Shown here piece after piece: positions 23,387 through 53,300 of a stretch of DNA of 64,000 bases. The notes beneath the pieces are model-generated. The model saw only the letters and a program-made list of their open reading frames with translations. It did not search any database and had not been told where the DNA came from. The DNA comes from a virus: positions 1 to 64,000 of IMG/VR virus record IMGVR_UViG_3300025769_000095. One strand, written 5' to 3'. Each line of letters begins with the position of its first letter. Position 1 is the stretch's first letter. Position numbers and translations under genes: made by a program.

Positions 23387-23450
23387 ATTTTAATATTTGT
23401 ACTCGGAGCGGGGCTTGAACCCGCACGGCCATTACTGGCCACAGGATTTT

Positions 23451-24117
23451 CTTACCACTATAGTTTTCACTACCATTAAGCGCATAATGTTTGTGGTCTG
23501 GACTTTCTCTTCATCATATCATTTCTGACTTAGATGCCTTCCGTCAAGTCTCTACACGTTCTCCTCTTTTGGAGCTTCGCTCGGGATTGCCATTTTACAG
23601 GTTTCCCCGAATTTGAAAGGTTCTACTCCTGAAATTTCTTTCAAGGCACTCTTTGGTTTGTATGAATCTTTTTTCAAATTCATTTTAGTTTTTAATGGAA
23701 TGCCTCCGTTTTGTACAAAAGCTCCATATTGACCAGTGCATTTTTTAGAACAAAAGCCAGAAGACTTTCTTCTGTTTCTCTGTCCTAATTTATTGCCTTT
23801 AATAACAAACTCACTATTACACCAAACACAAATATGTTTTTCATCTTTATATTTTAATGCGTCTTGATAAGAATGAGTTTTTCGGTCAATAACTCTTAAA
23901 TTTGAAAGTTCGTTATTTGTAAAATCACCATCAATATGATCAATGGTTTCATTATCGCTCAAATAACGATTTAAATACATCTCTACTAAATACTTAGGGT
24001 AAGAAATGGTTTGTTTCCTGCCATCAGGATGTTTTAAAACCATTCTTTTCCTACCATCTTGTTTAGATGTATAAGGCCCATACGTTTTGCAATTATTATA
24101 CATAATAATTACTCTTA
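23451..24117 (-). other. Group I (IC3-like) self-splicing intron in tRNA-Leu
   Basis: A 667-nt intron. P1 can form from exon ACUU and intron GAGU with the expected U-G pair at the splice site. Near its 3' end is the core: GGGGAAACC then TGGCAATCCCGAGCGAAGC (P4-P6 side), GTAGAGACTTGACGGAAGG (P7 5' strand and P3 3' strand), and AGAAAGTCCAG (P7 3' strand). These closely match the Anabaena tRNA-Leu intron. CCTTTC/GGAAGG can make P3, GACTT/AAGTC makes P7, and the last base is G. The HNH ORF fills the region between P1 and P3 and extends into the core. Confidence 0.9.
23552..24103 (-). CDS. Intron-encoded HNH homing endonuclease
   Basis: A 183-residue HNH endonuclease wholly inside the intron, starting 14 nt after the 5' splice site. 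The HNH core is ETIDHIDGDFTNNELSNLR at about residues 53-71. A zinc ribbon-like pair CVWC and CSKKC follows near 91-122, then a basic region. Such enzymes cut intron-less alleles so that repair copies the intron. The final about 23 codons (EPFKFGETCKMAIPSEAPKE then ENV) are encoded by the ribozyme P3-P6 sequence, and the TAG stop lies just before the P7 strand. Expression must precede or compete with splicing. Confidence 0.9.
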   Translation of the reverse strand: MYNNCKTYGPYTSKQDGRKRMVLKHPDGRKQTISYPKYLVEMYLNRYLSDNETIDHIDGDFTNNELSNLRVIDRKTHSYQDALKYKDEKHICVWCNSEFVIKGNKLGQRNRRKSSGFCSKKCTGQYGAFVQNGGIPLKTKMNLKKDSYKPKSALKEISGVEPFKFGETCKMAIPSEAPKEENV

Positions 24118-24151
24118 AAGTCCTGCGTGTCTACCAATTCCACCATCCGAG

Positions 24152-24595
24152 CTATTGTTGAGGTATAAAAACAACATTCACATCTGCTTCATCAAACATT
24201 TCTAATGCTGCAGCAAAGCTTTCAGTGTATCTTTCAGGAACTTTGTTAAACTCCCAAGTACATACTTTCTTAATTCCACATTGGATTATAGCTCTTGCAC
24301 AATCAGCACAAGTCATAAGAGTGGTATATATTGTCCCTCCTATTGGTGAAGCATTTGTTCTATGAGCATTGTAAATAGCATTGCGTTCTGCATGCTCAGT
24401 ATACAAGTACTTTTGTGGTCTTTCATACCTCCAAGTTTTGTCATCATCTACTTCTGATGGAAATCCATTGTATCCAATAGAAACAATACGATTTGTAGAG
24501 TCAACAATTACTGCACCTACTTGAGTATGTGGGTCTTTTGACCAAGTTTTAATATGCTCAGCAAGATGTAAAAAGCGAAGATCCCAATCAGCCAT
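24152..24595 (-). CDS. dCMP/cytidine deaminase
   Basis: A 147-residue zinc deaminase that converts dCMP to dUMP, the ThyX substrate. The zinc-binding motifs are HAERNAIY (HAE) and CADCARA (CxxC), with PHTQVGAVIVD near the start, as in phage T4-type dCMP deaminases. I take the ATG at 24595, whose A is shared with the preceding stop (TAATG), rather than an in-frame ATG 33 nt upstream inside the phosphoesterase. The TAG stop ends on the first base of tRNA-Leu. Confidence 0.9.
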   Translation of the reverse strand: MADWDLRFLHLAEHIKTWSKDPHTQVGAVIVDSTNRIVSIGYNGFPSEVDDDKTWRYERPQKYLYTEHAERNAIYNAHRTNASPIGGTIYTTLMTCADCARAIIQCGIKKVCTWEFNKVPERYTESFAAALEMFDEADVNVVFIPQQ

Positions 24596-34900: not shown

Positions 34901-35389
34901 TAATAAAGATGCAATTATTTCTTCTCTATCAGTAATATCTTTATCTAATATGATTTGTTTTTGCTCTTTAGATATTTGAAGTTCTGTAAGTATTTTATTT
35001 AAACCCCAATTATTATTTTTACCTTTTTCAAATATTTGTTTAGCTTTATCAGAAACTAATGTGTTAACTGCTTTTAATCTATATTGAACTTGATTATTAT
35101 ATTCTTTTTGATTAAATACATTATCACCTTGTTCCCATACAGGATTATTAGAAATCTCTAATTTAATCTCAGGATATTTTTCTTTAAGATACTCAATAAG
35201 TTCTTGTTCAGTCCTACCTTTATTTCTTGAAGTAGGTTGTAAATTGATTGGAACTTCTTTAGATTTAGTATAATTATCCACTTTAGATTGACTATCTAAA
35301 CCTGCCATCCAATACCTAAAAGCTTGGGTAGTTCCATAAGTAGCTTCTAAAGCTTTCCAATCTGGGTGGTTTTTATTTGGACACATCAT
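31916..35389 (-). CDS. Virion cargo protein with HExxH metalloprotease motif
   Basis: A 1157-residue protein with the N-terminal tag MMCPNKNHPDWKALEATYG shared with the 1372-residue cargo protein. Residues 628-638 read HEYAHHYISWF, a zincin HExxH helix, followed by acidic residues that could supply the third ligand. Near residue 840 is KGGKWRLIKDLQG, then YPTHEKGGVDLMIG, a pattern echoed as PPHSMGGQAVD in the 891-residue protein. It may process virion proteins or host targets. The ATG at 35389 overlaps the giant gene stop (ATGA); the upstream TTG is unlikely. Confidence 0.72.
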   Translation of the reverse strand: MMCPNKNHPDWKALEATYGTTQAFRYWMAGLDSQSKVDNYTKSKEVPINLQPTSRNKGRTEQELIEYLKEKYPEIKLEISNNPVWEQGDNVFNQKEYNNQVQYRLKAVNTLVSDKAKQIFEKGKNNNWGLNKILTELQISKEQKQIILDKDITDREEIIASLLADNSFVVEINTAKSKINLQQLPSEEDEYKIGNDVYKRIVTPEFEYVHYKNGNKISEEEFNNVVLEKESQYYSYLTVPGGANYTENEIVTPAIKPAIKGHAQFATDNGIGWFRSDEQRVGGKTATEMGADDFIEGPNGRKINPDNVTIGGKDTKTRRILELQSDLFQKGRNRKDLITNPEVNALNTSGMRGVTNMEEMLSAYEYSLIEYENKTKEEADELVSKERKRLLGLSSSKEGFNENKFLQLLNKKGNWVNFFIQSIIQDSAKKGYEKVLFPKGDTISKIEGHTTLEEFKKQKEDRIKEIEKQLEKPKYVVDWLDTSGYGDENIIFETEQEAKDYVKIENAKLPEDVEGSYILLFNRERLNNEINQLKQEIKRVEEEGFGALRPIYDFYENRVTNTLNKLYDVKEITDEYGNKWNEITITPEVLSEIMLQRNEANQIIGQANIKAMTVLVDAVNKKADTIPHEYAHHYISWFRDTPIVQEGIKRFGSEEALVQAIGEQVVKQKGEAYNWWKKFTNWILNLLSDRQLLQILTDSFLNRQDLNEFTYNNINLNKENTQPEVEDPTKYKKIYKGSELTKPTNPNNEMSLEGFKEGQKGVYEVFEENKELLESEGITAEMLIKSISKNKNSISDIENWINNCLKGRSTNKANINTSSLPKAEQGMKSSKFTKGGKWRLIKDLQGYPTHEKGGVDLMIGKDGVSITSGQSNFKAEYGLVLPKAQQGMVIGDPPSNYQNQQDWQLDYINSPQYKQILTNEFTESGMDPNLVDKEIARRAGRVSNVSIEEDPSIGVSASSLINEANPNEVYADTNKPVNDYFSLNPADFLPQGINETLGLSPTPSSNLSVNPDLIGSNQSDVIRELAKASTAGNKGLVSSTREKLMNATDVADLNAKAELPVKKDLELNKTYSAFDNPTRIHSQLTTLKKLMQDEGIYNPMIESATPEHIQQMLQNPNIINDPNIRELIQLNLKQGTDIGQLLNSVASNNNQNLDDYV

Positions 35390-38300
35390 AATCCGCAAAG
35401 CTTTTGATGGAATGAAATTACATCTTCATTCCCTGATGAAAGGAATAATTCTTTTTGTAAATCAGGATCCATATTTTCACCATACTCAAATTCTGAAGTG
35501 TGTAAAAACTTTACTACACCTTGATATGGGTCTAATAATACTGCATAAGGTCTTCCTTCAAATTCAAAATCCATAATGTTTTCTTTTGCTTCAATTGGCG
35601 ATGTTATAGCCCAACGATTATACTCTAAGGCAAATTTGTTTATTTTTAATTCAGAAGGTTCATTTTCATTTTGGTCTAATAATTTTAACATAGAAGGATT
35701 CTGATCTGATTTAAGTAAAGTTATGTATTCTTCATTAATAGTAACTCCAAATATTGGTGAATAATCTTTAAGTGTTGCAAAACCAGTATTCTTTGGAGCT
35801 TTTTCAGCTTGATCTATAATAGTTTGTTTTTGTTTTTTACTAGAATCATCAAGTCCTTCATAAACTTTTTTACCTGTTGCAGTAGAATATATTGTATTGT
35901 TATCAGTTACAATATACTTTGTACCATTGTACATAGTAGTTTTGTATCCGCCTATAACTTGTAACTTACTAGTACTTGGTGTACCACTAAACTTACTTCC
36001 ATCTATACCTATTAACTGAGCTTTACCTGAATTATTTATATTCCAAAGTAAATAAGTTTTACCATTATATTTTACAACAGCTCCTGGCCTAATACTTCTA
36101 TCATTAGGATCAAACATTTTAGATTGAGTAGTAGGTTGTTGCACCTGTTGTGTTGGTTGGGTAGTTTTAGACCACCTTGAATAACCATTCATTTTTTCTT
36201 CTATATATCCTTTTGTAGATAAATAATCTGCAACTAGTTTATCTGATAAATTACCTTTAGCATATTGATTACCTACTCTAAATGATGCACCTGCTTCAAT
36301 AGCTTGTTCTAATAATGGTTTGTATTTTTCTTTTAAAGTTTTAAGAATTTGCGCTTCTGTTACACCTCTAAATGTTCCACTACCAGAAACCATAACTACA
36401 TCAGAAGATGTATAATTTCCAGTATTAGCTTTATCTCCCCAAGCTAATCTATATTTATTAGTAGAACTTACAGTAGCTGAGCCTGATTGAAACCCAATAA
36501 ATTGAGTAGATTCAGAAGCCATTTGAATATCTTTAGCAGCATTACCATACATGTCTGTAGGTTTTACACCTGCTTGACTTAATGGATTTACTGCTTGTTG
36601 TGACCCACCTGTTTCAATTGCAGGTGAAGTAGAAGGTGTAGGAATAGGCAAGTTTCTAAGAATAGAATTGGTATTATTTAAAAATTTCTCAAAAATTTCA
36701 AATTCTTTTTGTGCTTTAGTTTCATCACCTAACGCTATTTCTAAAGACTCTAAATGAGAAGCTTTAGCTTTGTCAGTAAGGTTATAATCTAAAGCTTCCA
36801 AAGCAGTACCTTCTCCATCTAATACCCATCCTAAATACTCACTAGCCCAATTTTTAGCTTGCTTAAGACTTGTAAACTCAGGCATTCTATTGTTTTTAGC
36901 AAGGACATTAATATCATTTAAAGTTAATGAGTCAATACCACTATCAAATGAGCTTTTTACATCTTTATAAGTTATCTTTAATTTTATTGTAGGAGCTGCT
37001 TTGGCTTTTGCAGTTTTTTCTAAAGGTCTAAATTGTCTTAACCCTCCTGTGTAAGGAGTTGCAGTATCGTACTGATGAGGTTGTTTACTTCCATCAAAAG
37101 TAACAATATCTCCATGTTCATTAGTTACTGAATCTAAAAGTTTATGTTTTATAAAATACTCACCCTTAGAAAAGTCATTTGTACGATCTCCTTTTAAAGT
37201 TAAACTTTTTACTCTTGTATCATTTGCATTATAAACATTTAATACAACAGGCATAATATAACCTGTTCTATTATATTTTCTTCCATGAGAATTAAAAGCT
37301 GTTATTCTAATTATTGAAAGTTGTTTTTGATGCTTAGCTCTATCATATTGTTCATAACGCCCATCACTTATCTTATCTCCTCTCATTGTTTTAATATCAT
37401 ACACTCTTTCTTCACCAGCTTCATCTACAGTTACTAAGTCTAAAGTAGTACCTATTCCATTATAAAGATCAATGAAAGTACTTTCTAAAGCAATAGGTGT
37501 TTCACCTTTAGATTCAAGGTACTTTGAAAATTGATCTAATTGTCTTATTAAACCATTTAATGCCCCTTCATTACCTTTTTCTACAATTTCATAAGTGCTT
37601 AAATCCTTTGATAATACCCCACTAAAATAGTCTCTTAAAAATCTATCTACTTTAGTACCTATTGTAGTAGCTGTTTCACTAAGTTGACTTTTGTTAGCAT
37701 TGACATACATTCCTAATCCATCATGCTCATAGTAGCTAACTCCTTTAGAATATAAATATCTTATCAAATCTTTTTCATAAGGAGTTCCTTCTTTTGTAAG
37801 ACCAGCTATTGTTTTAAATACAAATGTAACTGACTTCTGCCATCCTCCTGCACCCATTGCTTTGTCAATCAATGCCTTTATTTCTGCTAACTCTTCTTGT
37901 GAATTAACACTTAGCATGATTGTTTCATCGCCATTAAAGTTTTTAGTAACCCCACCAAAAGCAGCAGCTAAAGGATTATTAGAAGCACTAACAATACCAT
38001 TTGAATAATTAGCCATCCTTTGTTCTAACTCAGAAGCATTAGTAAGTTGAACAGGAGAAGTTAGTTTTTCAAATTTAGGCTTACTTATAAAGTGAGTATT
38101 ACGCATTACCGTATTAGATCCATCAACATAAGAGGTTTTGTCTTTACTAATTTTAACATTCTTAGTAGCTTCAGGAAGTTCTTTAGTATAAAAATCAAGA
38201 GCTTGCTCTTTTGGACTTTTTACAGTTTGACCATTTGGATTTACCTTACCATTTAAAGTAGAGCTTATAAAAACTCTATCTGAAAATCTTGTAATAGCTG

Positions 38301-41300
38301 TGTACATTGATTTAGATAAATTATCTGGATCATCCTTTGTTACACTATAAATATCATCTTCTAATACAAGACCTTCTGCATAAGTAGAACCTTGAGATTG
38401 GTGAGAATTAATAGCATATGCATAATCAAATCTTACATAGGCATCACTTATATCTCTAAAAACACCTCCTAATTGTCTGTGTGCAGAAGGATTACTAAAC
38501 TTTAATTTATTTCTTTCTTGCTTTAAAGCTTTACGGAATTGCATTATAATATTATAATCCTCAGGGAAAGGAACCCTTTGTGTAGTAGATTCACCATATA
38601 TTTTTAAAGGAAGTTGATGGCTTCTTATTTTTACTTTACTCCATTGCTCATAGAAAGTTTTAGGTAACAAACCAGCTACTTCTAATCTATCAATAACATT
38701 TTTGAAAAAGTAATCTTCTCTTTCTTCAGGCCTCCCTACAATTTGAGCAGCTGTATTTTTAGTAATAGCTATTGCTTGACCATCTACCATTAATCTAAAT
38801 GGATCTAAAACTCTAAGTAGTTCACCCTTATAATAAGGTTTTGGATTATCTCCAAATATAGTTTGTCTAACCCTTGCATTTGTTTTATTTACTGTAGCAT
38901 TTCTATATCCAATAATTCTAAACAAATTAGGATTATTCTCTTTAATAGCTTTTTTATACCTTTCTATAGCATAATTAAATAAGTTATTTTTTTCTTCTTC
39001 TTTTATAAATACTAATTCTTCAGTATCAATACGTTGGAGACTACTGTAAGGATTTTTAGGTTTATTTTTTTTATCAGAATGAGAACTATCCCAAGCATGA
39101 TCTGCCCAAGGAAGAATAGAACTGTCTTCTCCTTGTCTTACTCTTTCAAACAATTTGACTGATGAACTATCATTATCTTTTAATTCTAAGAAAGGTCTTG
39201 ACAAATAACTTCCTAATTTATGTTTTTTAACAAAATCATTAAGTTTAGCTTCAGCTATTGTTTTAGCTTGACCTCTAGAAGTATCAACTTCAGTATTAAT
39301 ATTTTCTAATTCAGAAATAATAAAAGGATCTAATTTTAAATATTTAGCTAACAACAAATAATCTTTACCTTCTCTTACAGGAATTAATTGTCCACTATCA
39401 CCAGCAAATAAAATCTTAGCAGTAGGATTTTGTTCCCTAATTTTAGCATATGTACTTTCACTTATCATAGAAGCTTCATCTATAATAATGTAAGTAGCTT
39501 CTTCTATTGCAGTTGTTTTTTTACCTCTTTTAAAATTATTAGAAGTTGGATCATATTCTTCACCTAAACCAGAACTAATAGTAGAAACTTTAATAGTTTC
39601 TTCTTTTTCTACTCCTGCGTTCTTAAGATTATTAGCCGCTTGATTAGTAGGAGCTAATACTAAAATAGGTTTTTGCATATAGCTAGCCGAGGCAGCTAAT
39701 TTCTGAGTTATAAACTTAATAATTGTAGTCTTACCTGTACCTGCTTTACCTTGTAATAAAAAGTCAACACCTTTATTATTACCCATAAAAAAGTCAAGAA
39801 TTCTATTATGAGCATTCTTTTGACGATCATTTAAATTTTCATAACTAACTGCTGATATGTCTTTACGACCTTCTTGTTCAACAGGTTGTTGCTGTTCAGT
39901 AGAAGGTTGTTCAGTAGGGGTTGGCTTTTGATCTGTTTCTTCTTCTTTAGAAATTAACTGAGGAGGAATATTACTAGATGAAGGAATTGAAGAATCACCA
40001 TCTTCAAATTCTGAGTCAAAGAAATCTTCTCCAAAAGATTCACCACTACCAGTAGTACCCATTGGAGGAGCATCACTTGCAGATGGGGGTGGAATGAATT
40101 CTTGTCTTGTGAAAGTTTTTAAAGTGGGTTTACTGCTATACACATCTTCAGCATGTTCTCCAAAGAAATATCTTTGTACTCTCTTTGTGTTATCTTCATA
40201 AGTACTCAGTTCACTAACACTTACCCATTTTTTAATGTTATAATAATACTTAAACAACATATTACCATATCCAGGAACATATGTTTTAAGATAAGGAAAC
40301 CTAATCCCTCTTTGTCTTTTATGTTCATTTATATATAGTACTGAAGGATTATTAGGATCTGCGTAAGGACTATAAATTGGTTCTGGAATATAATCCAAAT
40401 CTCTAAAGTTATTTCTTATAAACTGGTCTAAGAAATTATTTACATGGCTATCACCTTTATCAAAATATTCTAACTGAGATTTTAATGTTTCAAAATCTTT
40501 CTTGTTAGCCCATGTTTTTAAAGGTAATAATTGATTAAACCCTCCCATAGTAAATCTAAATCCACTTGCATAGAAAGAATAAACTTTTAAAAATTCAAGT
40601 ACATCTGATGGTAATTTCTTAACATCATTTTTTATATCTTGAACTTCATTCCTATCCATATTAATATTACCTTGATAGATAATATATCCAGCTTTAGTAA
40701 ATTCAAGTTTCTTTAAAAATTTATTGTTAGGGTTTGACTTTTGAAGAGCCATTAGTTTTTTTCTATTCTCCGCGTAAGACTTTTTAAACATGTCATAATC
40801 ATACAACACAGAACCTAAGTACTCAAAATACTGCCTGTAAAGAGAATCTATTTGATCATTAGTAAGGTCCCACTTTTCATAAATGTTTTTCTTTAGTCTT
40901 TCAGCCTTATTTAGAATTTTTTTAAAGGTCTCACCTTTTATATTTGGAAACCCAATTTGATTTACAATAGTATCTAGTGGTAAAGAAATACCATACTCTA
41001 CAAGAGTCTCCATGTAGAAAGGTATTTCTAAAGAAGATTCAAACATCTCTTTAGCTCCTACAAAATAAGCATCAAAAGATGCTTTTTGATACCTTCTTTC
41101 AGAACCAGCACTTTCACTTAGATTAGCTCCTAATCCACCATCTCCAATTTTAGTATTAGTAATAAGATCTGAAATATTACTTACTAAATCTTTCATACCA
41201 AAAAGAGTACCAATAATACTTTCACTACTATTTAATACATTACCATCAGCATCAAAATATAAAATTGAACTACCTGCTTTTGGTAAAACATTAGCTAGTT

Positions 41301-44300
41301 TACTTTTACTAAGCAAAGCATCTTCAGTATATTGTAATACTAAAGGATCATTAAGAACTGATATTGCTTGAGGAATACTATAACCAAGAGACAACAACCC
41401 AAACAAATAATCACTTGTAGCAGAGTTAACATTAATATATCCAGCTAATGGATTCTTTCCATTATCCACAGCAGCAGCTAAAAACTCTGCCATGTTTTGA
41501 ATTTTAGAAACACCTGTATTGTCAAATTCTTTTGACAAGTTTGTTAATTCTTCAATTTCAATATTAGTAGTTCCATTTTTAAAAGTTAAATTATTAATCA
41601 TTGAGTTAAAAATAGAATCTATTTCTTCTTGAGTAAAGCTAATAGATTGTTTTTCTTCTAATCTACTTTTTTCTTTTTTTGCAAATGCTGCTTCTGAAAT
41701 AGCTAGTTTTATTAAATTTTGTATTACAGCATAAGCATTTGCATTAGAAGATGTATTAATTAAATCTTTTGCAAGATTAGGGTAATTGTAAGATTGTTTA
41801 TTGTCAATATTTTCAGAAAAAGATTTATAGAATTTTAAAACCTCTTCTATTATTTTAGTATGATTAGATGGGTTACCTAATAATTCTCTAAATACTTCTT
41901 GTACAGCACCATTTGCTTCAAATTTAGCATCAAAGTTTTTAATTGAATTTAATAATTTTTCATTAAAGAAATTATCATTTTTTATATTATTTGTTATTTC
42001 AACAGGTAACTTAACTATTCTAGTTAAAAATCCATCTTTATGTTGAATATTATAATGTTGCCACAACGCATTTGATGCTAAAGCATTAGCTGCAATACCA
42101 GTCAATGCTTTACCTTGATTCATTCGTTGAGCAATATTAACAGTGGTAACAGGGTCTAACATTAGCAATTTAACATCACCCTCCTTGTATTTATTTGCTA
42201 ATCTTTCAACAGTAGCAAAACCTCCAGGCTTAAGTTGTTTAGATGCAACACTAGAATCTCCTAAAATATCATTCCACATTAAATTAAATAATGTCTTTTC
42301 ATTAGCTCTTTTAGTTTGAATCCTTTCTGTTTGTTGTACAACTTCAAAATCTGTTAATAATAAATCATCTCTTTCAGCAACTAAATCTTTTATGTTTTGA
42401 TAAAGAGTGTCTTTATAATTATAAAGGTCACCTAATCTTTTTTTAAGTTCTTTATATTCTTCTGAGTTAAGACTTTCAAGAAGTTGTTTTTCAGCTTCTT
42501 TAGGATCACTAGACAATGATAAATCTGAAATCTTTGAGCTTAAAGTAGCTAACTCTAACTTTAATTCAGGTATTGATTCTTTAGTATTTACTAAATTCTC
42601 ATATAACTTCTCTATTCTTTTATTATAATCTTCTACTATTTTTCTACCTGCATTAGTTCTTTTTGCTATTTGTAAAGCTGTCTGTACTTTAGAAGGTGCG
42701 CCAAAACCTTTTACCTTATCAATGTCAAAGTCAAGACCTGCAATAGCAGTAATCTCATGAGGCAATGTCATTGTATCTGAAAATGGATCAAATGCAATAG
42801 CTTTGATTTTAAAATCAGAATAGAAATATTCATTAGGAATACGATACCCTATTGATTCTTTTAAAGACTCAGGCATTGTATTAAATGCTTCTTGATCAAT
42901 AAAGCCTTCATCATTAATGTATTCTGCTATTTCCTTATTTGTTACAGGAAGAATAGCTTCCATATAAGCTATTGACTTAGGTACTGATTTAGTATCATTA
43001 GCTTTTATAATCTTACCATCAGCATCTTTAAATACAATGCGAGGTTTCTTTGCAAAACCTACAGCTGAACGGTTAATTAAAGAATACCCATTAGAAAACT
43101 TTTGATCACTAACTCCTTTTCTATACATACTTGATAGTAAAGACTCAATGGTTTTACTATTTACAGGATGCCATAAAGGAACTGTTGGATCTCCATTTTC
43201 ATCAAGTTGAAGCATTTCTAAAAAGTCATCTCCTAACCCTCTGTTAATTACATCTTCTCTTAATTTTTTAATAAGATCATTCCAATTAGAAATTTCATCT
43301 GTAAGCTCTGCATATGAAATCTTAATATTATCTATAATAAGTTGTTGGTAAGCTTTTACAATTTTATCGTAGTTAGGATGATTATTTTTTAAATCAACAA
43401 TAATAAGCTTTTGAATCTGTGTTCCAAATAATTCACTTGATTCATAATAGTGGCTTGGATTTTCTTGTTGCTTACCCCAAGCATCATAACTAAGTGAAAC
43501 TATAGGAGCACCTTCACCAAGATAAGAATCAATGCTTTCTTCAACATTGTATTCATCACTAAGATTTAAGTTTGGCTTGTATGCTTTTAAAGTAGAATCA
43601 AAAGTATATACGCCATTGTCAACTTCAGTATCTACATTTGAATAATCAACCGTACCATCAGGGTTAAACACATAACCTGATTCTTCTAATAATCTTTTAT
43701 AGAAAGGATTGTACAAAGGGTTATCTACTTCACCTTTTTCAGTTTTTATTTTTTTCAATCCATAAAATGGAATCATTAATATTTCAGAATCTTTCTTTTG
43801 GAAAGGTGTAAGCTTAGAAGTGTTAGGGTCATTTAAAACCTTTTGAAGTACCATTGTATAAACATATGGTTTGATAGTTTCAAAAGATCTTATACTCTTA
43901 AGCTCTTCTATTATTGGAGAGTTTTCAGGTAGTGCTTTAACAATAGCATCTATATGTTTTTTAGAAGGTAATTTACCTGAACTAATAAGTTTCCAAACAA
44001 GATCTTTAGCTTCTGTCCATTCTCCCATAGCTATCATTCGATACTTATAACTATGAGGAGTAAGAAGAGTCATACCATCAGTTAAAGAAACGCCCTGTTC
44101 ATAAGCTGATAAGTTTTCATCTCCTAATATTTTACCTAACTGATTTAACTGAGGAGCAGGTGTTTCAATATCAGGAAGAATCCTGATGTTCATTGTACTA
44201 GGTACTTTAGTAACTTCTCCTTTTGAATTAGACCAAAATGCATCAGAAGAAGCATATGTTACAGGGGAGTATAACTCTTTAACTCTCTTAAAGAAATCAT

Positions 44301-47300
44301 CTACTACATTCCCAACTCCTTTAGACTTATAAAAAGCAGGGTCTCCTGCTGTAATTAAAATCATTTGACCTTGCCAAGCAACATGATTTAATACAAAATT
44401 AGTTAGGTAATCTTGTAGCTTTTCAGGGTCTAATTCAATTCCTTCATGAAGTTGAATGTTAGGATCTGATATTAATTTTTCTGCTAAGTCACTAGCTGTT
44501 TTTCTAGCCCATGCTTCAAACTCTTTAACATCAGATCCCATTTCTTGAGGTACTAATAATCTAGATGAGGCATTTTTTGCAAAGTTAGAAGGTGCATTTG
44601 CAACAGTACCATTCTTATCAACTTGTTGAATTCGATTTGATTCAAAATCAAAAACCTCTTTTATTAAACCAAGAGCTTCTTCGTTATTAAGTTTATTGAC
44701 CTCCATCATTTCATTTACTGGAGAGTCTGAATAAATTGGTAAAGAAATATGACCTTTAGATTTGCTATCATTATTAAACCAGCTGTTAATCATTATATTA
44801 TAATGATCAGCTGTAGTTAGTTTATCATAACTAGTTCCTTTTTTATCTCCCTTATACTTAATACCTCCATTACTAGAGATAGTAATCTGCTTTAAATATT
44901 TAAAAACAGAAAGGTTTTTATATAAAGGATCTTTAAAGTAAAACTCTTGGAAAGTTCTAGGATCATTTTTAGCCTTGTTTAATAAATTACTTAAAAATCC
45001 TGGCTTGCCCCATTCAAATAACTTTTCACCCTCTACACTAAAAGTAGTATCTTGAAAATCCTGAACATAAAAATCAGCTAAAGTATCTGTCAAGAAACCC
45101 AAGTGGGTTTTAAGTTGCAATTCCCTTTGTAATGTTATAGCAGGGCTTTCTTTAGGATTCGCTTCTTCAGATTCTTTTAATAATTTTTTAGCTTCTAACC
45201 AATGGCTTTCTAACAAGGAAAGTAATCTTTCATTTCTTTTGTTTCCTAACTCAGCTTTTGCTTCTTTAGTTAAAGGAAGATCTAAAATACTCTGACCCCC
45301 TTCTTTATACAAGTTTTTTAAGTTGTTAGTAATGTATTTGTTAATTGTAAACCTATTAGCTTTTATGTATAAAGGCTTATTAGCTTCTCTATTTGACCCA
45401 GGTAGATAAACCATTACATGGGTGTTAGAATTTTTCTGTTGAGCCAATTTAAATAGTTGAACAACAAACTTATTAGCTCTTGCATTTTTCTTTAATTCTT
45501 CTACATTAGTAACTTGATTATTATTCCATCCTTCGTAATATTCTTTTAATTGTTTAAATATAGGATGAGCATCAAGTTTCTTTAACATAGCAGGTATGTT
45601 ATGAGCTCCACCAATAACCCTTTGTAATTCTGGATATAATTGATGATGATCATAATATAAAGGCATACCATGAAAACCAATCTTTCCTTCTTTTTTTATT
45701 AAAGACAAAGCCCTTTTAATAAAATACCCCATGTTTTCTTTTGGAGAAATCTTTGATTGATCATAACTCCATGCATCACGAGGATTTTCTTCTTTATCTT
45801 TATTGATAGAATCTTGCTCATCAGTTGTATCATCTGTGTCTTTTTCAATTAAAGAACTAGTATCTAACTTAATTGAGTATCCTCTTGAAGCAAGACCTTT
45901 TAAAAATTCAATGTACAATGGCCCTTTAACAGGTTCTATTTCATATATTATTATATCGTCAATCTTTCCATCTTCATTAAAACTAAATTCTTTAATGTCA
46001 GGTCTTAAAGCTTTAAGCACCTTTAATATGCCTTCTTGATGGGATGGGTTACTTTTTGCATACTCAATAAATGCATTTACTACTGAATTTGTATCAGGGT
46101 CTATTGAAGTAATTAAATCTAACTCAGGATCTTCATTTAAAGCATTAGCATAAATAGACATTAAAGAATCAGGGTTGTTTTTATATTCTTTAGTTAAGAG
46201 AATATCTAAAGCTGCAAGACCTGATGATACAGACTGTTGTATTTGAAGAGTTGTAAGTTCAAATGGTTGGAATGCATCATTAAAATTATTAGCAACAATA
46301 CCTTCTTTGTATTCTCCTCTGTCTAACTTTCTAAATACTGTATCTATTTGTTTCCAATTACCACTAATCTTTTTTATAAAATTCTTTAACACTCTAAAGA
46401 ATTTTCTTAAAGCTCCTTTTACCCCAGTATCAGCTATTCTATATTCTTGAAACTCATTAGCCATTTTTTCTTCAAGAGCTATTTCTTCAATAGTAGACTC
46501 AGGAAGATTTTTATATTTCTTTCTAAGATTGTCATATATCATTCTAGCCTCTTGCATTTCAGCTTCAGTAAGATTATATCTTTCTTTGGCTTCTGCTAAA
46601 AGAGTTTGTCTTGTCTCATCAGAAAGCATTCCTCTAAACACAATATGAAATGCCTCATGATACAAGGTTTTATTACTAGCTTGATTTGATAACTTAATTA
46701 AACTTCTCTTTGCTACTCCATAAGCTTGGAAAGAACCTACATCAATTAGACCATCTACAATCTGAAGAGGAAAATCTCCAAGAAGCTCTTTCATTTCTTT
46801 ACGAGCTTGCTCCTCATTTAAACGGAATTTTTTACCTCTAAAAGGTGAAGTTGTTTCATCATCAAATATATTTCCACCTAATTTTCTGCTACCTCTTTTT
46901 CCGCTACCTCTTTTTTTTGAGGATGGTTCTTGAGTTGGTTCTTGAGTTGGTTCAATAGCTTCTGAAGCACCTTCACCTGTAGGAGTTGGTTGTGAAGGGG
47001 GAGGTGTTGATTTACTTTCCCTACTTCGTTGAGATGGACCAAAAGGACTTTTTGAAGAAGGTTTTTGTTCTTCAGAAACATCTTCTGAAGATCCTTGAGC
47101 CTCATAACCTTTAAATCTAAAAGCAGGGTACACATAAAAATCTCCATCAAGTAATGAAGTTTCCATTCTATCTAAAACACTTTCTACATAAACGTCATTT
47201 GACAATTTAGTATAGTCTACTTGACAAGGTCTATTATAAAGGTTATGACTTTCTATAAATGCTTCAGGTGAAAAGAATCCATTTTCATCTAAATATTCTT

Positions 47301-50300
47301 TTTCAAAAAGAGTATTTTGTTTAATATTAGGTTCATAACTATAATTTCCATTTTCATCAAACTTCTTATACCTAACAAGACTTATTAACTCAGCTTTATA
47401 AGCTTTAAGTTTTTGTTGCCATTCTCTAAACTCAGGGGTACTTGTTTTTCTAGTACCTGACTTTCTAATAGCAATTGAATGTTCTCTTATTTTATTTAAA
47501 ATATCATCTACTTTAGCTTTTACTTCAGCATGCTTACCTACATTTACTTCATATACTCTAACCCATCTATATTCACCAGAAGTATCTTGAGCAAGAATAA
47601 ATAAGTTATCTTCATTTTTTCTTAACCTGTCACTTTGAATCTGAATGTCTGCAGTAATTCTATCTGTAGTACCTTGAAGGTTACTCATTTTTAAATCAAA
47701 AGCAGCTTTACCTTTTATAGGTAAAGCAACAGCTATGCCTTTTACAGATAACTTATCCCATATTTCAGATACTCTTCTTCTTTTAGCTCTAGTTGAATTA
47801 TTAACTCGACCTGGCCTTATTTGATCAAAAATAGCAAACCCACTAGACTCAATATATTTACCTGAAAAGTTTTTATCTAACAATGCTTTTTTATAAGCTT
47901 TAAATAATTCGTTTCTAATTTCAAAAGTTTGACTTCCAATTTCAGATTCTTTATTTAAGAAACCTATGTGATGTTCTTTTCCACTATTGTCTATTACTGT
48001 TACTAGTATATATAGATCTTTAGGCTCTGGATTAGTTTGACTTGCATTTCTTTTAAAGTTAACAGGTACTTTAAACTTTATTTTAAATTCAAATGGGTCT
48101 CCATATAAATGCATATTTCTTAGAAAATGAACATCAACCTCATACCCATCTTGTTTTAATTCACTTATAAAATTATTTTCCCAAGGATTACCAGTTTTAA
48201 AGTTCCTTCGTAAAGTAAAAAGTTCTGTTCCTGGAATCCTGTCAACCCAAGAATCTAAAGTCATTATTTTTTCTCCAAAACCACTAGTTTCTAATGCAGG
48301 TGATTCATCTACATTTTCTTTATTACCAAAATCATCTCGATGTATTTGTAACTGATCAAAAATGTAATAAATTATATCACTTGGGTCAACTTTTTTTAAG
48401 GCATCTTTTGAAATATTTATTTTCTTTAAAATACCTTCTACCAATTTATTAAAATCATCTCGATCTAATGATTCAAAATAATTTCTAAACTCCTCACTTT
48501 TAAAATCTCTTAAAAGAGCTGTCTTTGCTCCTTTGTATTCTTGATTATTTAGAAGTTTAAAAATTGAGTTTAAATGATTTTCATTTGGGTTTGTAGTTAT
48601 CTCAAATAATAACTTATCTATCTGCTCAGATAATTTTTCAATAGGAGTTTTTGTTTCTTCTTCTTTACCTTCTTTTTGCTGGCTTTCTTTTTTAGGTTCT
48701 CCTTTAACAATCTCTGTATTAGAAGCCAATACAGTTTTAGTAATACCAGTGTTACCTTTTGATTTATCTATTTTTACAACTACTCTATTACCTTTAAACT
48801 CTGTAACTACACCTTCTATTTCATCTCTAAGTCCAACTTTAGTGAGTACTTTAACACGGTCACCTTTCTTTATAGGATTTCCATTTTTATCTAACTTACC
48901 TTCTGATTTTTTACCTTCTTTTTCCTCAGTACTAGGTTTATCTTTTGAAGCTTCTACTTCTGCTTTTATACGTTCTTTTAACTCAGGAGTAATATATTTA
49001 TTAACTAAAGCTTGATGAGGTGGAATCATATCTTCAATAGATTCTCCAGCTAATAATGCTTTTTTATAAATAGCTATAGCTAATTCTTCTTCACTAGAAG
49101 GTAATGAACTCGGATCTTCTTCAGTATCTGTTTCTTCTTTTATTACTGTTGAGGTTAAATCTTTGGGTACTTCATTTTTAATGTCACCTATATAAGCACT
49201 AAGCTCATCATGAGTAACAAAAAAAGCTGTATCTGAACCTAATTCTTTTTCTAATATAGCTCCTGCAGAATCAATATCTTCTCCTGTTGGAGATACTGTT
49301 ATTAATGGTCCATAGTAATTACCTTCTAAATCAGTAACTCTTTGAAATGTAAAAACCTTTGCTATTGTAACAGTTTGAACAATTCCCCCTTCATAAAATT
49401 CTAATTGAATACTTCCATTAGAACTATCAATAGATTTACTACTATGAAACTTACCTATAAGAGCTTCCCTTTTATCAGGATCTTCTATAAGTTGTTTTAC
49501 ATCATCAGGTGTAAGATTCTCTACGCCTTTGTAATCTCTTCCTTCGGCTTGTTCTTTCTTTTGTTGATCAGTAGTCTTTTTTTGTTTTGGTTTAGTAGTA
49601 ACTTCAATCTTTTCAAGCTTACTAATATCTTCTTCAATTAACTTATCATATTTGTCATTGATTTCATCTAAAATAATTTCATCAATAAAGCCATCAATAA
49701 GTTCATTTTGTATTTCTTTTTCTCTTTCAGCATTTCTTTTTTCAACTATATCTATAATTTTTAAAGCTCTTTCTAAATGAGCTTCTTGTTCTTTAAGTTT
49801 ATTAAGTTTAGCTTCAGGATCATTTTCATCAAAAATATCTTCTTCATCAGAAAACTCTTCATCTATTTCACTATCTACTCCAGACTCATCAATAACAGCT
49901 CCTTCAGAAGGATCTGGTGCAGCAGATTGATCTTCAACAGCTTTGTTAAACATATCAACTGAAGTATTAAAATCTTCAACCTTTGTACTGTTGTTGAGTA
50001 GATCAAAACCCTCAGCTACTAAATCATAATAAGTAGTAGGAAATCCTATAAGCTTTAAAATTCCCTGAATAATTCTTTCAAAGAAATTAGCTTTACCTGC
50101 TACTTTTTTATTTTTAAGTTTATTGACAAATCTTTGATCTGTCAAAGCAGCTAACATTTCTCTTGTATTAGTTAAAGCAAACTCATTTGCAAATTCAGGG
50201 TCTCTAACTAAATCTTGTCTTATTAATTCTAAATCATAAATAACATCCATTTGCTCTTCTGTAAGAGCTTCAGGGTTGGTATTTAATAAATGAAACATGT

Positions 50301-53300
50301 AATCTAATGTACCATGAACCATTTCATGTACAATAGCCTTGCTGACATCACCAGATTGAAATAATGCAGGTATATTAATGTATATCTTTTTGTTAGCATG
50401 ATCATAAATACCACCTAACATTTGTCTACCTGTACCAAATACTATACTATCTGGAGAAGGGAATATTATTTTTAATCCAAACTTTTTAGCATTCTCTTTT
50501 AGCTTTTCAAAAATATTTCTAGTAGCATCATCTACATCAAGTTGATCAAGAATAGCATCTAATTCTTCAATAGTATATTCCTTATCATATTCTAACTTTG
50601 ATTTTTTTACATGCCTTCTTTTTCTTGATGCAAGTTTTCCTCTTCGATTATTTTTAATTAAAGCATCATGCCTTTCTTGAACATCTGTTAAAGTAATTTC
50701 TACTCCTAATTCTTTTTTAACTTTTCTTTGAAACTTTTTAAAAGAGTTTTTATAATCATAATCATTAATAAACTCAGACAAAAGCTTTTTAAATAATGGA
50801 TTTTTATTATAAAGCTCAGAGTGTCTACTTGCTAAATCAATAACAGCAATATAAAAGTCATTATATGAAGTACTTCTTCCTTCGTTTATAAGATCTTGTA
50901 GTTCTCTTCTTACCTGTTCTAATTGTTGTTGAACAGAAGTCCTAGCAGCCTCTACATCAAAATCAGCATATGAACCTTCCTCTTGCTCAGGATCTTGTAA
51001 TTCAATTGCTGGAGCCTCACTATTAACCTCCTCAGTACCAGACGATGTATCATCATTATTAGCACTTGTATCTTCTTCAGCTGTTTCAGCTTCAGGTGTT
51101 TCTTCTAAGATAGGAACATCTCCTTTTTCAGAATTATTAATTAACTCTTCAGCTTGCTCTTTTGGTAAAGTTGTTTCTTCTTCTGTTCTAGAATCTTTAA
51201 TAGTATAAGTGTTACCTTCAGGATCAATATTAGATACTATTGCAGTGCCACCATTTGGAGTTGCAAATACTTTACCTATATTATATTTATACTTAGCTTC
51301 TTTTGGGGATTTGTTATTTGGATTTGCTTTGTCCCATTTTTCAGCTTGAGTAGCTTCTAATTTTGTTTTAGCATCATTGTCCATTCCACTAATAAATGGA
51401 CTACTCATTACATCTGTCATGTACTCTCCAAAACTATTATAATCACTCATGTTTAATGACTGCAATTCTTCAGCTACTCTAGCATCTCTTTGAGCAATAG
51501 CTCTATTTTTAATAGTTTGGAAAAAGTCTCTAGCTTTTTTATCTTGATTAGCATCTTTAGAAAAACTAGGGTTATCTAAATTCTCTTCAGCATCTTTAAT
51601 TATACTTTGATAAGAATCATAATTACTTGCTTTTTTTAATTTATCATTGTATATCATTTCACGAGTTTTTATATACTCGTCTGAAATGTTACCATTTTTT
51701 AAATCTTGCTCTTCTAAAAATGTACTTTTGTGATTAATTTCATGTCCTACTTTTTCATTAGACAATTTTTGAATATCTGTCCAATACTCTTCATTAATTT
51801 TGTAATCTTCAGCATTAAAACCTTCTTTAGATTCTATTTCAGATAGTTTTTTCTTTTCTTCATTAAGTAAATCTTGTATAGCATTTTGTTGATAAGGAGT
51901 TAAAGTTGGATCTTTACTTCTTTCTTCTAAATTTGAAATTCTTTTTTTAGTAACATTATAATTTACTACTTCAGAAGAACCTAGTCCTGAAACAAGAGTA
52001 TTAATTTTATTTTGAGCAGTATTAATAAGATTATTATAAAAAGCTCTCATTCCCCTTGCTACACTTACTCTTTGTTGATTAGGACCATTAGGATCTTCAC
52101 TATTAGAAGGATTACTAGCATCAATCGCTGCATTAATAGCTTCTATATTACTGTCTTGAGCATTATCAGGATTTGCAGCATTAAGCTCATCATTAAGAGC
52201 ATTTAATGTCTTTTTTAAAGCTTCTTGATCTCCACTTTTAACACCTTCTTCAATTATATTTCGAGCAGCTTCTACTTCAGGATCTTTACTTTGAAAAATA
52301 TCATTTATTTTTTGACCAAAGTTTTTAATCTTTTCTCTTGCTCCACCAATACCACCATAAAATACTCCACCTCCAAGAGCTCCAAAAAAACCAGAAGTAT
52401 ATAACGCAGGATCTTTAAAGTATTTTTCTAAAGGTGCTTGACCTAATCTATAATTCTCTGTATCTTTTCCATATCTTCTAGCTTCTTCCCCTAATATATA
52501 TTGGAATACTTCTTCCCCACCTTCACCTAACATATTAGCTATAAGACCTTTAAAAGATTTTGCAGCAGCTTTTCCTAATTTCTTACCCATTAATCCCATC
52601 ATAAACTGAGGAGCGTCTGTAAGCATAGCTACATAACCAGTTCCATAATGAGCCATTGCTGCTTCACCTGCTAATTTTCTTGCATCTTCTTCACTTAAGT
52701 TTTTTTCTTCTATTCCATATTTATAGATTTCATCAAATGTTTCTTTTCCTTCCATCATCATTTCAAAGTGACGAGAAACAAGAGCTTGACCAAATCCAGC
52801 AGCAGCTTGCCTAGATATACCTTTAGCTGCTAATCCTTGACCTATTTTTTTAGTAAAATCTGTAATTCTAAAACCTCTACTTAATTTTCCAAACCTTGCT
52901 AAATTACCAAGTGCTCCTAATGTTCTAATTGTACCAACCGCAGGAATAGCTAATGAAATAGCAGATGCAATTGAACCTACATTTAATGCCCACCATTCTC
53001 CATCAAAAAATCTAAACCCTTGTTGGGCTTGTTGACTAGCATATATTTTTCCAAAGGCATCCGTCTCTCTAATGTTTTCTCCCAATTTCATTAAAGCATT
53101 ATCAAAGTCAGTGTAACCTTGAGTTATCATTTCAGGTATTTCCCCCAAAGAACCAATAGCATATACTACATCTCCTAAAAACTCAGGAATAATCTTAGCA
53201 ACACCTATACCAAAAGCAACAAGGTCATTTTGATTAGCAGCCCTTACTTCGTTTTGGTCCATTCCTCTAAGTAGACCTATGTCATACTTATTTAGCTCCT

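Follow-up and report, generated by a model that had tools for sequence, protein, structure and literature searches.

A probably mobile group I intron of the bacterial tRNA type, with an HNH endonuclease ORF, in the tRNA-Leu(UAA) gene of a tailed phage

The window, i.e. the whole 64,000-nt stretch of viral DNA that was analysed (out of a record of 68.9 kb), carries on its minus strand, from position 24152 to 23399, a tRNA-Leu(UAA) gene in which a 667-nt group I intron splits the anticodon. It is the single gene that ARAGORN reports for these 64 kb in intron mode (tRNA-Leu(taa) c[23399,24152], intron i(36,667)), and it consists of the following parts:

24118..24152, minus strand: 5' exon of tRNA-Leu(UAA), tRNA positions 1-34 (ARAGORN intron mode, sequence)
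23451..24117, minus strand: group I intron of 667 nt between U34 and A35 (RF00028, ARAGORN, covariance model R1)
23399..23450, minus strand: 3' exon of tRNA-Leu(UAA) (ARAGORN intron mode)

With the splice sites marked by slashes, the junction reads CAGGACTT/TAAG...GTAAG/AAAATCCTG, and the terminal base of the intron is a G (omega-G, 23451). ARAGORN folds the spliced product into a canonical tRNA-Leu of 87 nt, which has a long variable arm and all stems intact; its 3' CCA is incompletely encoded, the 3' exon terminating in ..GAGTACA. A preliminary description of this DNA had recognised two exons forming a complete tRNA-Leu(UAA), interrupted between U34 and A35 as in cyanobacteria and plastids, and had proposed an intron-aware ARAGORN run; that run recovers the gene and agrees with the insertion point, whereas the length of 86 nt and the span of 23400-24152 given earlier are off by one base at the 3' end (87 nt, 23399). 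Default ARAGORN calls no tRNA in the whole window, a verdict which is wrong given what intron mode reveals. The first base of the tRNA (24152) is at the same time the final base of the stop codon (TAG) of the dCMP deaminase gene, and because of this one-base overlap the mRNA and the pre-tRNA probably lie on one transcript.

The 68.9-kb record encodes a polymerase, helicases, a primase, rIIA/rIIB, thyX, dCMP deaminase and very large ORFs, and the split tRNA-Leu(UAA) is the sole tRNA found in it. At a GC content of 32%, UUA (TTA) is the commonest leucine codon (47% of leucine codons), a share that fits a use for tRNA-Leu(UAA). One of the giant proteins has matches in crAss-like phages, at 22-24% identity. 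The block of giant ORFs resembles that of crAss-like phages with giant polymerase proteins and includes, at 35386-53559 (minus strand), a single ORF of 6,057 aa.

RF00028 is the sole Rfam family above threshold in the 64 kb, matching 23663-23481 on the minus strand (58.3 bits, E 3.2e-12). The same family model reports none of the tRNA introns at the loci L003, L004 and L006, even at E 0.01, for which reason a covariance model (R1) was built from 18 bacterial tRNA introns, which we take to be of the IC3 subgroup, and zero viral rows. R1 scores these three introns at 53-112 bits and the window at 119.1 bits (E 4.4e-28), with no second match in the 64 kb. The preliminary description had made its assignment depend on an IC3-type covariance match, which R1 now provides, and the two core blocks that it quoted (GGCAATCCCGAG and GAGACTTGACGG) are both present in the core. 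As RF00028 misses such tRNA introns, surveys relying on it undercount them. The elements of the core are:

23628..23645, minus strand: P2 hairpin with GAAA tetraloop (covariation)
23615..23620, minus strand: 5' strand of P3, CCTTTC, partner at 23537-23542 (100% of cells paired, two-sided changes in 5/6 pairs)
23581..23610, minus strand: P4-P5 domain (RF00028, covariation)
23546..23550, minus strand: 5' strand of P7, GACTT, the guanosine-binding helix, partner AAGTC at 23501-23505 (covariation)
23512..23536, minus strand: P8 (covariation)
23461..23472, minus strand: P9 hairpin with GAAA tetraloop (covariation)

This structure was assessed in an alignment of 34 diverse viral homologues, using the textbook helices including P3 and P7. 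Overall, 95.1% of cells are paired and two-sided changes occur in 34 of the 48 pairs, while the covariation score is 0.527, compared to 0.05-0.10 for controls in which the partners were slid by 1-3 columns. Pairing is complete (100%) in P3, P6, P7, P9 and the closing helix, and reaches 98% in P4; the fifth pair of P7 covaries between A-U and U-A. Pairing and covariation across these homologues thus indicate that the window intron is a ribozyme under selection and no chance match. The P3-P9 core with its P3/P7 pseudoknot (RF00028; P3 and P7 fully paired and covarying), together with a U.G pair at the 5' splice site (5' exon ACUU opposite GAGU) and the terminal G23451, identifies it as group I, and the small core with GAAA loops on P2 and P9, a short P5 loop and no P5abc is the architecture of IC3.

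Most of the intron is taken up by an ORF, accompanied by two candidate guide sequences:

23552..24103, minus strand: HNH endonuclease ORF of 183 aa in the P1 loop (ORF call, HNH_3, ORF-less relatives)
23648..23651, minus strand: distal GAGT, which likely serves as internal guide sequence by pairing with ACUU of the 5' exon (ORF-less relatives, duplex energy)
24111..24114, minus strand: proximal GAGT, alternative guide, 3 nt past the 5' splice site (sequence, duplex energy)
24091..24110, minus strand: perfect palindrome AATTATTATG/TATAATAATT with the ATG of the ORF near its apex (sequence, predicted fold)

The endonuclease ORF that had been noticed within the intron is open across all 183 codons, and its product matches PF13392 (HNH_3) at 25.6 bits, above the Pfam cut-off of 24.8; a PDB search with the protein gave no meaningful match. 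In relatives of the intron that lack an ORF, about 7-13 nt separate the 5' splice site from the guide GAGTGC, which directly precedes P2. It is this gap that the ORF occupies, which places it in the loop of P1; over its final ~100 nt it runs on through the guide sequence and into the ribozyme core, as far as P6. Because AAGAGT is present at either end of the insert, two guide sequences are conceivable. The distal GAGT directly abuts P2, with the same spacing as in the ORF-less relatives, and its predicted P1 energy is -3.7 kcal/mol versus -1.9 kcal/mol for the proximal one; the distal copy is thus likely to be the internal guide sequence. The proximal GAGT as sole guide was set aside, given that the guide of the ORF-less relatives lies directly before P2. 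A UU before the guide, for P10 pairing with the 3' exon, is found in 138 of 174 viral introns; it precedes neither the proximal nor the distal candidate of the window intron, so that splicing may be weaker here. The palindrome around the ATG may hold back the start of translation of the ORF, to judge from its predicted fold.

The HNH protein shares 34% identity with the ORF of L124, another intron-split tRNA-Leu. Among named homologues, those closest to it (43% identity over 96%) are the products of free-standing genes that lie directly 5' of an intronless tRNA-Leu(UAA) in the Salmonella phages PVPSE1, SSE121 and R7 and the Klebsiella phages KP13-16 and KP2025; a faecal phage contig is arranged likewise. 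Weaker homologues precede tRNA-Arg(UCU) in Bas91, tRNA-Asn in RaK2 and tRNA-Thr(UGU) in AM24, and another sits within the tRNA cluster of CBB. The simplest reading of these neighbourhoods would be that the HNH family attacks tRNA genes and has here become lodged in an intron that shields the target. Since some relatives adjoin other tRNAs (Arg, Asn, Thr, Met) or none at all, tRNA-Leu(UAA) is not certain to be that target. In Escherichia phage Bas91 (L397:1456-1944) the free-standing gene of the same family overlaps the 5' end of tRNA-Arg(UCU), and tRNA-Arg(UCU) holds introns in other phages.

The arrangement, which could have been taken for a curiosity of a lone phage, turns out to be widespread. 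A strict DNA pattern retrieved at least 119 viral contigs from IMG/VR, most of them with an intron at the U34/A35 site. Counted over the strict-pattern contigs, an HNH-based scan and the loci of named phages, ARAGORN places at least 118 introns of tRNA-Leu(UAA) at precisely this position (the window accounting for two of them), besides further introns in viral tRNA-Arg(UCU), Ser(UGA), Thr(UGU) and Ala(UGC). Labels of tRNA-Tyr(ATA), Ser(AGA) and Stop(TTA) in the same output were rejected as misplaced splice points in tRNA-Leu(UAA), judged by their CTT/..G/AAAATC junctions. The same site is filled in the huge phages LR756501 (735 kb) and LR756511 (595 kb), in Agrobacterium phage Atu_ph07, a cultured jumbo phage (278-nt group I intron, L400:2995-3356), and in Pseudomonadota, Cyanobacteriota, Bacteroidota, Acidobacteriota and other bacteria. 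The annotation of Atu_ph07 overlooks the split tRNA-Leu(UAA), a hypothetical ORF overlapping the gene; the paper on this phage lists 33 tRNAs, and the intron goes unmentioned (PMC6102473).

Horizontal movement of the intron between tRNA genes, which the preliminary description had proposed, gains weight from the discordance between introns and exons. Introns are more alike than exons in 7,336 of 8,778 viral tRNA-Leu pairs, versus 947 of 3,081 bacterial pairs, counts that are descriptive because the pairs are non-independent. In the pair L154/L157 the introns are 98% identical and the exons 71%; as these loci are also alike in their flanks, this points to movement, or to exon replacement, within related phages. 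A search for close relatives yielded two: a near-identical contig, L318, which ends ahead of the tRNA, and a syntenic sister phage, L316 (thyX 91%, metallophosphatase 75%), in which the tRNA-Leu(UAA) of this neighbourhood lacks an intron. The L316 gene does not represent a clean empty site, since a small ORF separates its position from that of the window's tRNA and its anticodon arm is different. The comparisons clearly support the view that tRNA-Leu genes exchanged such introns in the past.

Where the intron of the window came from can be judged by its core and its exons. Direct arrival from cyanobacteria, i.e. the ancient tRNA-Leu intron carried by a cyanophage, finds support in the tRNA, the site and the core blocks, which are all identical in kind, and an AU test does not reject the window and the cyanobacteria as one clade (p 0.264). 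In the intron-core trees, however, the cyanobacterial introns form one long-branched clade (100/100), while the window intron falls into a viral neighbourhood (each of the five rows nearest to it is viral); the deepest branches are weakly supported. The signature GAGTG...GTAGAA of the window intron, moreover, is carried by 85 viral, 34 Pseudomonadota and 3 Bacteroidota rows but by 0 of 9 cyanobacterial rows, and the identity of the exons to cyanobacterial tRNA-Leu does not exceed 71%, as opposed to 95% for Bacteroidota. Direct arrival from cyanobacteria is therefore very improbable; given the weak deep branches and the AU result, non-cyanobacterial descent of the intron is probable but not proved. 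The term "cyanobacterial-type" used earlier thus suits the family and the site but probably not the descent, and the exons do not look cyanobacterial.

The exons look Bacteroidota-derived: their 95% match is the intron-bearing tRNA-Leu of Phaeodactylibacter, and introns at U34/A35 occur in several genomes of its order. It could therefore be thought that the whole intron-bearing gene was taken from a Bacteroidota host, intron and exons travelling together and the HNH ORF alone being added later, especially as the closest intron cores from hosts are up to 76% identical when compared by HMM alignment and 83-85% identical when aligned pairwise with gaps. Phage introns are nevertheless nearer (L057, the closest, 85% in the HMM alignment, in exons just 73% identical), the tree joins the window with viral rows, the Phaeodactylibacter intron itself is ~70% identical, and exons nearly as close (92-94%) belong to intronless tRNA-Leu genes in other genomes of the order, which makes such a pick-up unlikely. 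That the locus is a relic, with a dead tRNA or a ribozyme that lost splicing through the insertion of the ORF and the loss of P10, would agree with the missing UU before both guides and with the overlap of ORF and core, but it is hard to reconcile with intact tRNA stems, an intact ORF of 183 codons and the pairing of P3, P6 and P7 in 100% of sequences (P4 98%). Work on the Anabaena intron (Zaug et al. 1993, in so far as it is related in PMC3984707) also indicates that exon pairing in the anticodon stem aids splicing, and a relic seems quite improbable. Host DNA misassembled or misbinned into a viral contig, finally, is suggested by the host-like exons but is hardly credible: the flanking genes are those of a phage (dCMP deaminase, metallophosphatase and thyX, with polymerase, primase, rIIA/rIIB and giant ORFs), the sister phage L316 retains a tRNA-Leu(UAA) in the same neighbourhood, and the HNH ORF of the intron is related to phage homing endonucleases.

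Hence, the only tRNA gene found in this tailed phage is highly likely to house a mobile group I intron that is self-splicing and belongs to the bacterial tRNA (IC3) type. The pre-tRNA would be co-transcribed with the dCMP deaminase mRNA, and P1 would form between ACUU of the 5' exon and the GAGU just ahead of P2, with the ORF looped out. Two transesterifications, begun by an external G, would then free the intron and ligate the exons into a functional tRNA-Leu(UAA) for reading UUA, the commonest leucine codon of the phage. The HNH protein, presumably translated from unspliced RNA, might cut the intronless tRNA-Leu(UAA) of co-infecting phages (or of the host) near the anticodon, after which repair would copy the intron in. 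A broader suggestion, which we make tentatively, is that group I introns of tRNA-Leu(UAA), and likewise of Arg(UCU), Ser(UGA), Thr(UGU) and Ala(UGC), form a large reservoir that still circulates among phages. Their movement would be due to HNH endonucleases whose genes were at first free-standing and targeted tRNA genes. If this were true, it would be phages, and not vertical descent, that account for the patchy occurrence of the intron over the bacterial phyla.

Among old introns, that of tRNA-Leu(UAA) is a textbook case. With the IC3 introns of cyanobacteria and plastids (e.g. that of Anabaena) the window intron has in common the tRNA, the position between U34 and A35, the ribozyme core and the small IC3-type architecture, whereas it differs in residing in a phage genome, in its 550-nt HNH ORF starting in the P1 loop, in its signature of J1/2 and J2/3 and in its separate branch in the tree. 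It is matched by R1 (119 bits), made from such introns as those in tRNA-Leu(UAA), Arg(CCU) and Ile(CAU) of Pseudomonadota and other bacteria, part of which have the GAGTG...GTAGAA signature as well; the sampled bacterial introns, unlike that of the window, lie in cellular tRNA genes and are mostly too short for an ORF. Free-standing HNH genes beside phage tRNAs (the T4 SegB type, and those of Seunavirus, Kuravirus and RaK2) are related, the HNH protein of the window being 31-43% identical to those directly 5' of tRNA-Leu(UAA), Arg(UCU), Asn or Thr, but its gene lies inside an intron that splits the tRNA. The phage group I introns in td, nrdB, DNA polymerase and capsid genes are of the self-splicing type with a homing endonuclease ORF, as is probable for the window intron, but split protein genes instead of a tRNA. 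Introns inside phage tRNA genes are also known from the Lak megaphages, to which the window phage does not belong. Devoto et al. (2019) stated that these were previously unreported and termed them "enigmatic", the main text naming tRNA-Tyr and tRNA-Thr without a group I assignment and, for the baboon Lak genomes, a tRNA-Tyr intron only (PMC6784885).

According to a 2014 review, every phage intron then known lay in a protein-coding gene, despite the many tRNA genes of phages (PMC3984707), a statement that phage introns avoid tRNA genes which many phages now contradict. A literature search, with most subscription journals outside its reach, turned up no paper that describes tRNA-Leu(UAA) group I introns for phages or says how abundant they are. 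It seems, then, that a known ribozyme family at a known site has an unexpected and evidently common habitat in phages, with a putative homing endonuclease in its P1 loop. As default tRNA finders and Rfam thresholds miss such genes, the tRNA inventories of phages are incomplete. The sequence evidence for passage of the intron between phage tRNA genes, in turn, makes the spread of bacterial tRNA introns testable in phages.

A few further loci deserve mention. In Prevotella phage Lak-B1 (L460:826-1569) there is an apparent tRNA-Leu with a 649-nt group I intron, which R1 scores at 41 bits. The introns in the capsid genes of Pelagibacter phage HTVC120P and a deep-sea phage (L008:1967-2154 and L009:1946-2126) score 98-100 bits with R1 and group among the phage tRNA introns in the tree, so a jump between a tRNA and a protein gene is possible on the strength of this grouping. 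Two phage contigs (L038 and L082) each have two intron-split tRNA genes, Arg(UCU) and Leu(UAA), whose introns differ. At L020:14263-14512, a tRNA with the anticodon UCA, called as SeC and possibly a UGA suppressor, is split by an intron of the same kind.
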